Source: Leptolyngbyaceae cyanobacterium M33_DOE_097
GTDB lineage: Bacteria; Cyanobacteriota; Cyanobacteriia; Leptolyngbyales; Leptolyngbyaceae
Length of the DNA stretch: 64,000 bases
Assembly (NCBI GenBank): GCA_015296075.1
Contig: DVDV01000236.1
Span: forward strand, 1 to 64,000
Direction of reading: 5' to 3'
The first letter of the stretch is position 1; the number at the start of each line of letters is the position of its first letter. The notes under the pieces are model-generated. The model saw only the letters and a list, made by a program, of their open reading frames with translations. It ran no database searches and was not told where the DNA came from. A program made the translations under genes and the position numbers. This document shows positions 17,255 to 20,887 of this stretch, piece after piece.

Positions 17255-17731
17255 TCAAACTATCTTTTCAGCTTTCTTCTGCTGTTGTTTTTCAAGATAC
17301 TGCTGATGTTCTTCGGTAGCTAACCAGTAGGCAGATGCAGGTTGAATTTGAGTTACAACTGGTTTGCTGTAAACCCCCTGACTTTCCAACTCTGACTTTG
17401 CTTGAATCGCTGTCTGTGTTTGCGCTTGAGAATGACAGAAAATCACCGAACGATATTGTTCTCCGCGATCTGCTCCTTGTCGATTGAGGCTCGTTGGGTC
17501 GTGAATTTTCCAGAAAACAGCCAACAACTCTTCATAGCTAACCACTGCGGGATCGTACTCAACCTGACAGACCTCAGCGTGTCCTGTAATTCGCGCCAGC
17601 ACATCTAAGTAACATGGGTTCTCAAAGTGGCCGCCCATATAACCAACGGACGTAGAAAGCACCCCCTTCACCTTCCGAAAGTTTGCTTCCACGCCCCAAA
17701 AACATCCCGCTCCAAACGTCGCCTTTTCCAT
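17255..17731 (-). CDS. msrA: peptide methionine (S)-S-oxide reductase
   Basis: 158 residues with the catalytic GCFWG motif near residue 9, VGYMGG, ITGHAEVCQVEYDP and the terminal YWLATEEHQQYL. It reduces the S-epimer of methionine sulfoxide in proteins using thioredoxin. No cysteine follows residue 100, so recycling would use other internal cysteines. It starts 18 bases after the pirin stop and is probably co-transcribed with it. Its stop is convergent with LysR. Confidence 0.95.
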   Translation of the reverse strand: MEKATFGAGCFWGVEANFRKVKGVLSTSVGYMGGHFENPCYLDVLARITGHAEVCQVEYDPAVVSYEELLAVFWKIHDPTSLNRQGADRGEQYRSVIFCHSQAQTQTAIQAKSELESQGVYSKPVVTQIQPASAYWLATEEHQQYLEKQQQKKAEKIV

Positions 17732-17749
17732 CGCGATCGCCCTCTTACC

Positions 17750-18649
17750 CTACAAAGGTTGTTCTTTCGGTTGCCACTCTGCCTTCTCCGGCAGTGGAAT
17801 AAACTCCGCTTCCTCTGGCACTGACTCAAAGCGTCCGGCTTTCCAATCTTCTTTTGCCTGCTCAATCCGATCGCGCCGACCTGAGACAAAATTCCACCAT
17901 TTGTAGCGGGAGCCAACGGGTTCACCACCCACCACAATACAGCGTGCCTCAGTATCAGCCGCAACCGTTACCGTCGCGCCTTGAGTCAAAATGGCGAGCC
18001 GATGTTGTTCTAGCGGGTGATCGTTTAGCTTTAGCCCTGCGGTCACGCTGTAAACCGCTTGCTCGCTGTAATCTGTTGGCAAAACGATTTGCGTCCCTGG
18101 AGCAAATTGCACATCCAGGTAAATCATGGGCGAGAAAGTCTGCACTGGGGAGGTGCGCCCGTAGGCAGAGCCAGCAATCAGCTTGATTGAAACGCCATTT
18201 TCTTCCCAGGCGGGCAAATCTGTCGCTGGATGATGCCGAAACCAGGGTTCTGTCTCCTCATGTTCATCTGGCAAAGCTACCCATGTTTGAATGCCATGCA
18301 ACGTAGCTTCCTGCGATCGCTCAGCAACCGGAGTTCGCTCAGAATGCACAATCCCACGTCCTGCGGTCATCCAATTCACAGCACCGGGGCGAATTTCTTG
18401 CACACTTCCCACACTATCGCGATGTAACAAAACCCCTTCAAACAAATAGGTCACGGTCGCTAAATTGATATGAGGATGCGGTCGCACGTCAACCCCTTTG
18501 CCCTCAGGAAACACCGCTGGACCTAAATGATCAAAGAAGATAAATGGCCCCACCAGAGTCACTACCTCTGAAGGAAGCAACCGACGTGCTTGAAAGCCAC
18601 CCAGATCTTGAGTATGGGGTTCAATAATGTGCTGGAGATAATCAGACAT
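17750..18649 (-). CDS. pirin family protein
   Basis: 299 residues, bicupin fold. The metal site is in the N-terminal cupin: RPHPHINLATVTYLFEG with a later His-containing GIVHSER. The pirin C-terminal domain begins near residue 170. Bacterial pirins include quercetin 2,3-dioxygenases and redox-sensing regulators, and the specific role here is not determinable. It is the upstream gene of a two-gene unit with msrA, which fits oxidative stress. Confidence 0.92.
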   Translation of the reverse strand: MSDYLQHIIEPHTQDLGGFQARRLLPSEVVTLVGPFIFFDHLGPAVFPEGKGVDVRPHPHINLATVTYLFEGVLLHRDSVGSVQEIRPGAVNWMTAGRGIVHSERTPVAERSQEATLHGIQTWVALPDEHEETEPWFRHHPATDLPAWEENGVSIKLIAGSAYGRTSPVQTFSPMIYLDVQFAPGTQIVLPTDYSEQAVYSVTAGLKLNDHPLEQHRLAILTQGATVTVAADTEARCIVVGGEPVGSRYKWWNFVSGRRDRIEQAKEDWKAGRFESVPEEAEFIPLPEKAEWQPKEQPL

Positions 18650-18866: not shown

Positions 18867-19268
18867 CTAATTACCGCGATTGACAGCTACTTCAGCTTGC
18901 TTAAATTCTGTTTCTAAGCGATCCTTCAGCTTTTGAGGTACTGGACGGTTGGGGTAAGAACTGTAGTGACCTGCCAATGAGTTCAATGCTGTCCGCATGG
19001 TTGTAAACGAGCTGAGGCGCGTTAAGGAAGTATTTCGGCGATAACGGGCAACAAAGTCGTTGATCAACTTACGGGCTTCCGTTTGGGCGGTTAGTTTCTC
19101 AGGAGTGCCATCAGGTAAGTTAATCGCTGTCCGTAATGTTTCAATCACGGTCAGGGTATCTTGCTTGTAGTCACCTGACATTGCATCAGCATAAGCAGCG
19201 GAGGCACCCATCAATGAGATGAAAAGCACCAGAACGAAGGAAAGCAGACGAGCAAGTTGACGCTTCAT
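18867..19268 (-). CDS. psb27: photosystem II assembly factor Psb27, lacking a lipobox cysteine
   Basis: 133 residues from the ATG at 19268 (MKRQLARLL). A hydrophobic signal peptide ending SAAYADA is followed by the Psb27 four-helix domain. The domain starts SGDYKQDTLTVIETLRTAI and contains ARYRRN, SFTTMRTALNSLAGHY and PVPQKLKDRL. Psb27 binds CP43 on the lumenal side of assembling or damaged PSII. Characterised cyanobacterial Psb27 proteins are lipoproteins, but this sequence has no cysteine at all, so it is predicted to be a soluble lumenal form. It has its own terminator. Confidence 0.9.
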   Translation of the reverse strand: MKRQLARLLSFVLVLFISLMGASAAYADAMSGDYKQDTLTVIETLRTAINLPDGTPEKLTAQTEARKLINDFVARYRRNTSLTRLSSFTTMRTALNSLAGHYSSYPNRPVPQKLKDRLETEFKQAEVAVNRGN

Positions 19269-19369: not shown

Positions 19370-20887
19370 TCAGAATTTTGAGCCTGTTTTCTGCCGGGGT
19401 CGCTTCGAGCGTTGAGGCGATCGTCCACCTACAGCAGCGTTATAAATTTGCTCGTTTGCCGCTGCCGATTGAAATAAGTCTACAACTGGATTGGGATAGT
19501 CAACGCCAAGACGCACCTCAAATCGTTGCTGCTCAACAGGCAAAAGCTTCCAGGGTTCGTGTACTTTTGCCGCCGGAACTTGGCTTAATTCCGGTAGCCA
19601 GTGTTTTACATATTCACCCTGGGGGTCGTAGTCTTTTGCTTGCTTCAAAATGTTAAAGAAGCGAAAACCGCGGGCATCATTGCCAACACCCGCCGTATAG
19701 TTCCAGTTGCCGTAGTTGCTACACACGTCATAGTCAATCAACAGCGACTCAAACCATTCAGCCCCCATGCGCCAATCAATGCCTAAATTCTTAGTGAGAA
19801 AGCTAGCCACATTTTGGCGACCCCGGTTTGACATAAAGCCCGTAGCCGACAACTCGCGCATGTTAGCGTCTACTAACGGAAAACCCGTCATTCCCTCGCG
19901 CCACAGCTCAAAACGCTGCCAGTCTTCCTTCCAGGGAATCTCGATGCCTTGCAAGCCTGCGGGTTGAAAGACCTTATTGCCATGCTTTGCGCAAATAAAC
20001 CGAAAGTAATCACGCCAGAGCAACTCAAAAATCAACCAATAGGTTGAATCATTGCGCACCCGCATCTGCTCATATTGCTGCACCTGCTCATAAATGTAGC
20101 GGGGGGATAAGCAGCCCAATGCTAGCCAGGGCGAAAATTTTGACGAGTAATCAGCTCCCTTCATGCCATTGCGCGTTTCTTTGTACACGCGGAGGCGATC
20201 GCCCTCCCAAACATAAGCTTTGAGTCTCGCCATACCAGCCGTTTCACCGCCCTTAAACGGCAACACGCACCGCTCATCAGCAGCAGGGAGGGTTAAGCCA
20301 AAGTCAGCCAGTCCTGGCAAGTCACCACGTTCAATGTTCTCTGGCAGGCTGAGTAGAGAATTGGGCGATCGCAATATCGGGTTTACTGTCGCCAACTTTT
20401 CGACCTGCTTACGAAAGTCAGTAAATATCTCTGGCAGTTGGGAAACTTTGAAGGGCAAATCATCGGGATGGTAAAGGGTATGTCCCCAAAAGCCCCTGAG
20501 AGCCGTTTTAGTTGAGCTAAGAGCTTGCTTTAAAGCCCCTTCGACCGCTCGTTCTTCTGCTGTGACCTCGCGATGGTAGTAAATGGCTGACGCGTGTAGC
20601 TGCTGTGCCAGCTCTAGCAACACCTGTTCAGGCTTGCCCTGCCGAATCACCAGATCACTTCCCAGGGCTTGCAACGACTGACGCAGATCCGCCACACTCT
20701 CCAGCAAAAACTGCGATCGAAATGCGCCCGTCTTTGGAAAACCAAACCGTGTCTCCCCAAACTGGCGCGGGTCAAAACAATATACCGGAACCACCCGCGA
20801 TCGCTGTTTAAGTGCTTGGTGTAGCGGTTCGTGGTCATGGACACGCAAGTCATTGCGATACCAAATTAAAATGCAAGGCTCAGGCAT
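19370..20887 (-). CDS. DASH-type cryptochrome
   Basis: 505 residues from the ATG at 20887. The open frame extends 61 codons upstream with no conservation and over the divergent promoter. The photolyase domain starts CILIWYRNDLRVHDHEPL, with RFGFPKTGAFRSQFL, and the FAD-binding C-terminal domain has ADYSSKFSPWLALGCLSPR, FELLWRDYFRF and TGFMSNRGRQNVASFL. These are hallmark blocks of Cry-DASH (Synechocystis Sll1629 type). The family binds FAD and MTHF, repairs single-stranded CPD lesions and may regulate transcription. Confidence 0.93.
   Translation of the reverse strand: MPEPCILIWYRNDLRVHDHEPLHQALKQRSRVVPVYCFDPRQFGETRFGFPKTGAFRSQFLLESVADLRQSLQALGSDLVIRQGKPEQVLLELAQQLHASAIYYHREVTAEERAVEGALKQALSSTKTALRGFWGHTLYHPDDLPFKVSQLPEIFTDFRKQVEKLATVNPILRSPNSLLSLPENIERGDLPGLADFGLTLPAADERCVLPFKGGETAGMARLKAYVWEGDRLRVYKETRNGMKGADYSSKFSPWLALGCLSPRYIYEQVQQYEQMRVRNDSTYWLIFELLWRDYFRFICAKHGNKVFQPAGLQGIEIPWKEDWQRFELWREGMTGFPLVDANMRELSATGFMSNRGRQNVASFLTKNLGIDWRMGAEWFESLLIDYDVCSNYGNWNYTAGVGNDARGFRFFNILKQAKDYDPQGEYVKHWLPELSQVPAAKVHEPWKLLPVEQQRFEVRLGVDYPNPVVDLFQSAAANEQIYNAAVGGRSPQRSKRPRQKTGSKF

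Follow-up and report, generated by a model that had tools for sequence, protein, structure and literature searches.

Psb27 without a lipobox cysteine in a Leptolyngbyaceae cyanobacterium and its recurrence across the cyanobacterial class

The psb27 locus

The window analyzed here, a stretch of 64,000 nucleotides from Leptolyngbyaceae cyanobacterium M33_DOE_097 (contig DVDV01000236.1), contains a single gene for the photosystem II assembly and repair factor Psb27, located on the minus strand at positions 18867-19268 (ATG at 19268, stop at 18867). The identity of the 133-residue product is supported by the Pfam model PF13326 (E = 1.7e-24; 87.1 bits against a cut-off of 25) and by the NCBIfam equivalog TIGR03044, "photosystem II protein Psb27" (176.9 bits against a cut-off of 117.35). 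Among solved structures, the protein is related to 7nhp, 2y6x and 7czl (E values of 1e-40 to 1e-38), and its mature domain likewise matches the Psb27 in 2kmf and 2knd. The predicted mature protein, a member of the four-helix-bundle family (residues 30-133; 18870-19181, minus strand), retains all 33 columns that are conserved at 90% or more among 178 unique lipobox-bearing Psb27 cores; thus, judged by its sequence, it is a normal Psb27. The mean net charge of the mature domain is 2.7 in forms with a lipobox and 3.3 in forms without it, and the value for the window protein is 5, in a comparison made without control for the tree.

psb27 is flanked on one side by genes for pirin and MsrA and on the other by a DNA photolyase gene (17255-18649 and 19370-20887); like psb27, all three lie on the minus strand. 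None of these three genes was detected near psb27 in any fetched relative, at an E value of 1e-20 and within the flanks examined.

The signal region and the missing cysteine

The earlier note on this DNA had described the protein as a Psb27 without cysteine and, indeed, no Cys occurs anywhere in the 133 residues. In its mature domain, family model, single copy and Sec-type signal, the window protein is similar to the Psb27 lipoprotein of Synechocystis and Thermosynechococcus (PDB 7nhp, 2y6x, 2knd), but it differs from the latter in lacking the lipobox Cys, that is, a Cys following Gly, Ala or Ser at the end of the signal, and in possessing a predicted signal peptidase I site. The sequence begins with MKRQLARLLSFVLVLFISLMG-A22-SAAYADA/MS (the slash marks the putative cut) and continues into the conserved core GDYKQDT, whereas an example of a lipobox-bearing relative reads GLMGC-SSSDPNSLT-GNYSQDT. 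Given the in-register alignment with such GLMGC relatives, the Cys has been exchanged for Ala with the preceding L-M-G kept; the usual L-x-G-Cys is thereby replaced with L-M-G-Ala, which is followed by an Ala-x-Ala site resembling those of signal peptidase I. The codon at the exchanged position is GCC (Ala22; 19203-19205, minus strand).

Signal peptidase I recognizes small residues at positions -3 and -1 downstream of a hydrophobic stretch. This small-x-small pattern is present in residues 22-29 as ASA, AYA and ADA, in agreement with the earlier suggestion that the region looks like an ordinary signal peptidase I site. The end of the signal region had been quoted with the correct sequence, but its cut point is less exact than was implied, because three overlapping Ala-x-Ala triplets do not fix the cleavage position. 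The Sec-type signal peptide predicted from the sequence and from motif enrichment spans residues 1-29 (19182-19268, minus strand) when the most C-terminal site, ADA/MS, is chosen; AYA/DA and ASA/AY are also possible.

A sequencing or assembly error, or a wrongly assigned start codon, might hide a lipobox Cys, and this explanation finds some footing in the draft state of the assembly (437 contigs) and in the broken psb27 frame of one relative (G395). However, the TTG-started in-frame extension of the gene up to 19316 is free of Cys, so that no alternative start restores the residue. Moreover, the nearest genome, that of a congener (G387; contig L032) whose Psb27 is 80% identical, is also Cys-less but has Ser (TCC) at the lipobox position in a gap-free alignment with many synonymous changes; hence a single sequencing error cannot explain the missing Cys. 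We therefore reject this explanation as extremely improbable, and with it the prospect, raised in the earlier note, that a conserved start or a sequence correction would bring the Cys back. Over codons 1-28, the window gene and that of the congener differ by 16 synonymous and 11 nonsynonymous substitutions (pS 0.71, pN 0.18), compared to pS 0.76 and pN 0.11 over the remaining codons; because pS so exceeds pN in codons 1-28, the signal region of the Cys-less form is under purifying selection between these two genomes.

Copy number

The missing Cys could also mean that the window gene is a paralog with a new role, as had been proposed, with the actual lipidated Psb27 encoded elsewhere or missing from what is, after all, a draft assembly. 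Yet the window genome (6.96 Mb, 99.93% complete) contains only one match to PF13326, the window gene itself; the congener also contains one, and the same holds more broadly, with exactly one match in each of the 182 matching genomes among 386 drawn from the phylum. Without a second psb27 in the genome the paralog idea fails; furthermore, the mature domain is not divergent. We consider this reading very unlikely and have rejected it.

Four members of the class (G051, G147, G183 and G268) lack any psb27 match. Three of these belong to the genus g46 and have genomes of 2.8-3.1 Mb, compared to 4.8 Mb in a g46 member that carries psb27; these may be endosymbionts that have abandoned photosynthesis.

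Distribution in the family and across the class

Within the family of the window genome, psb27 was detected in 40 of the 42 genomes searched, and these 40 proteins comprise 21 with a lipobox (including that of G395, where the lipobox is still readable despite the broken frame), 18 without the Cys and one that is atypical (G422, see below). On a tree of the 42 genomes constructed from the concatenated mature regions of Psb27, CyanoQ, CyanoP and Ycf48 (675 columns, with the signals left out), the lipobox state of Psb27 requires at least five changes, and four independent pairs of Cys-bearing and Cys-less forms lie on starred branches. Because most of the wider class bears the lipobox, the change within the family is likely to have been a loss. 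Among the 80 closest relatives, a sample biased toward the family of the window, the Cys is missing not only in the congener (L032) but also in Oculatellaceae Prado106 (L045), Chroococcidiopsidaceae CP_BM_ER_R8_30 (L056), Leptolyngbyaceae CSU_1_4 (L103), Stenomitos frigidus ULC18 (L078), Leptolyngbya FACHB-321 (L043) and Lyngbya HA4199-MV5 (L066).

Across the class, scoring of the lipobox required a Cys no more than 16 residues from the core with Gly, Ala or Ser immediately before it. So defined, it is present in 146 and absent in 36 of the 182 psb27-bearing genomes of the draw. The Cys-less forms are confined to 5 of the 29 families, namely the window's own (f1, one of the four genomes drawn), f13 (4/6), f19 (26/57), f25 (2/2) and f26 (3/3), and the lipobox is present throughout in the other 24. 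Several of the f19 genomes are, as we take them to be, Prochlorococcus strains (MED4, MIT9301, AS9601, MIT9312, SS120, MIT9211 and MIT9313). Given this spread over 36 members of the class and five families, the Cys-less Psb27 is not peculiar to a single genome. The caveat of the earlier note, that relatives might show the Cys-less form to be the common state, is thus half justified: the form is widespread but remains in the minority, both in the class (36/182) and in the family (18/40).

Across the class, a tree built on 269 sequences of the mature Psb27 domain requires 13 changes of lipobox state, compared to 48-51 in five of 20 shuffles, although parsimony counts of this kind do not separate loss of the Psb27 lipobox from gain. 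The class-wide tree of the mature domain is weak: in an earlier version with 218 sequences, 12 changes were reduced to 5 when branches with less than 90% support were collapsed, and to 2 when the threshold was 95%. Two families deserve separate mention. Both Psb27 proteins of f25 (L421 and L422), which we take to be the deep-branching Thermostichus group, lack the lipobox Cys and are divergent (PF13326 E values of 1e-8 to 1e-9), so that the change at the base of the class may have run either way. The Cys-less proteins of f26 (L220, L408 and L414; genus g58) possess a long N-terminal extension before the core, with a likely cut after ANA some 25 residues upstream, and are misread by a simple motif rule applied near the core.

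What replaced the lipobox

Within the 12 residues that precede the core, a strict Ala-x-Ala motif was found in 31 of 55 Cys-less sequences but in only 18 of 217 with a lipobox; for a relaxed small-x-Ala motif the corresponding counts are 54 of 55 and 77 of 217. These sets consist of unique sequences that are related by descent, and accordingly, Fisher values overstate the enrichment. The position of the predicted new N-terminus also differs from that of the lipidated one. In 178 lipobox sequences the stretch from the Cys (counted in) to the core is 8-13 residues long, whereas the last relaxed motif of the Cys-less forms leaves only 1-6 residues (39 of 40 sequences). The short N-terminal tail of the window protein accordingly contrasts with the 8-13 residues from Cys to core in lipoproteins of the Synechocystis/Thermosynechococcus type.

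These motifs bear on an alternative in which the signal remains uncut and persists as a transmembrane anchor, so that a helix takes over the tethering of Psb27 from the lipid. Tethers of this kind, in which a signal peptide has evolved into a helix, have been named as an alternative (PMC9458691), and such behavior is known from the C22S mutant of Synechocystis CyanoQ, in which the signal is uncleaved and the protein is membrane-bound with its level reduced to 17%; CyanoQ supplied with the PsbO signal did not accumulate (PMC5033237). Hence loss of the Cys need not yield a working soluble protein. Nevertheless, the near-universal small-x-Ala motif close to the core of Cys-less forms suggests selection for a cut, for which an uncut anchor would have no need, and we regard the helical tether as unlikely, albeit less so than the explanations rejected above.

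Sister lipoproteins and the lipoprotein pathway

The other lumenal lipoproteins of photosystem II provide a background for the change in Psb27. In the window genome, CyanoQ/PsbQ (L242, contig C273) also lacks the lipobox Cys, with a signal that ends in Ala-Ala-Ala-Lys, and CyanoP (L288, LQGC) and Ycf48 (L321, CVGC) have kept their lipoboxes. Throughout the family the lipobox is retained in 40 of 40 CyanoP, 34 of 40 Ycf48 and 14 of 41 CyanoQ proteins (the denominators are the 42 family genomes minus those without a scored sequence). Judging by this difference in retention among CyanoP, Ycf48, Psb27 and CyanoQ, these assembly lipoproteins can do without their anchors to differing extents. All six genomes in which Ycf48 lacks the Cys also lack it in Psb27 and CyanoQ, but with only 4-5 independent pairs a linkage test has no power.

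Both Lgt and LspA are encoded in the window genome. In the family, Lgt was matched in all 42 genomes and LspA in 40, the two without LspA being 82% and 84% complete. With the lipoprotein pathway present, the anchor changes are specific to each protein; loss of the pathway as their cause was rejected on these counts together with the full retention of the CyanoP lipobox. In one genome (G394, C28:57160-57565) the LspA match is split in two, which may reflect a disrupted gene or an error in sequencing; the same genome keeps the lipoboxes of CyanoP and Ycf48.

Discussion

Taken together, the sequence features suggest, with a probability that we put at roughly 0.8, that the window gene encodes a soluble lumenal Psb27 that is released by signal peptidase I, still binds CP43 and is derived from a lipoprotein ancestor. 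The ancestor in the family was most likely processed by signal peptidase II (LspA), with acylation of its N-terminal Cys. Under this scenario, the Cys codon changed to one for Ala, and the former flexible tether would now serve as the c-region in a Sec signal peptide of the ordinary type. Signal peptidase I would then cut this signal and free the mature protein into the lumen with an N-terminus about 2 (up to 7) residues before the helical core, as against 8-13 in lipidated forms. The soluble protein would be expected to bind CP43 through its conserved surface, by protein contacts alone, and to act as before in the assembly and repair of photosystem II. The soluble lumenal Psb27 of the earlier note is the best-supported reading, given the loss of the Cys, the signal-peptidase-I-like site and the conserved mature domain; its cleavage, solubility and retained binding to photosystem II are inferred from these features.

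Lipid anchoring has been reported to enhance the interaction of Psb27 with CP43 (PMC13089150), which, like the CyanoQ results above, counts against an easy switch. The C29A variant of Ycf48 became largely soluble and was lost from photosystem II complexes, yet growth was like that of the wild type (PMC8038367). The engineered changes in CyanoQ and Ycf48 are single steps; in natural lineages there has been time for the cleavage site to be tuned.

Plants offer a further parallel. Plant Psb27-H1 is nuclear-encoded and has a transit peptide. Like the window protein, it lacks a lipobox (PDB 5x56), and both have a very short mature N-terminus, measured in the plant protein and predicted here; in the Arabidopsis structure the mature N-terminal extension is two residues long (PMC5895690). 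By analogy, this agrees with the notion that Psb27 can fold without the anchor. The comparison with plants made in the earlier note is apt as a likeness but not as shared descent, because near relatives of the window genome carry the lipobox; the plant sequence is much more distant, and the cyanobacterial changes arose separately.

Loss of the lipobox as such is already known from sister lumenal lipoproteins, where the change is of the same kind as in the window Psb27: in print, CyanoQ without it occurs in Acaryochloris marina and JSC-12 (PMC4180030) and Ycf48 without the Cys in Thermosynechococcus (PMC8038367). No comparable survey or list of exceptions for Psb27 was found in the literature searched, which does not include the main review; apart from the wording that it is a lipoprotein "in most cyanobacteria" (PMC5895690), the passages covered treat it as a conserved lipoprotein. 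The role of the lipid has been called an unanswered question (PMC9145668), and one suggestion is that the lipid may retain photosystem II complexes within the biogenesis regions of the thylakoid, its absence in chloroplasts being tied to the site of complex assembly (PMC11449106).

The window Psb27 lacking Cys is real, single-copy, shared with relatives and mechanistically simple. We offer, at about even odds, a broader interpretation in which the four lumenal lipoproteins of photosystem II biogenesis have lost their anchors to a graded extent within one family: CyanoP not at all, Ycf48 seldom, Psb27 often and CyanoQ in most cases. Across the class, and also in Prochlorococcus, Psb27 would have adopted the signal peptidase I form on about a dozen separate occasions. 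Its lipid would then be dispensable, perhaps depending on habitat or membrane architecture, and the plant state would be one case of a recurrent switch and not a consequence of the chloroplast. Natural Cys-less cyanobacteria, some with near Cys-bearing relatives, allow the role of the lipid to be compared without making mutants, and pairs within the family (G398 against G396 and G397, G423 against G422) control for background. In the last of these pairs, the Psb27 of G422 (L137) has L-V-N-Cys followed by an Ala/Ser-rich stretch and, beside its Cys-less sister G423 (L121), looks like a halfway state of the switch.
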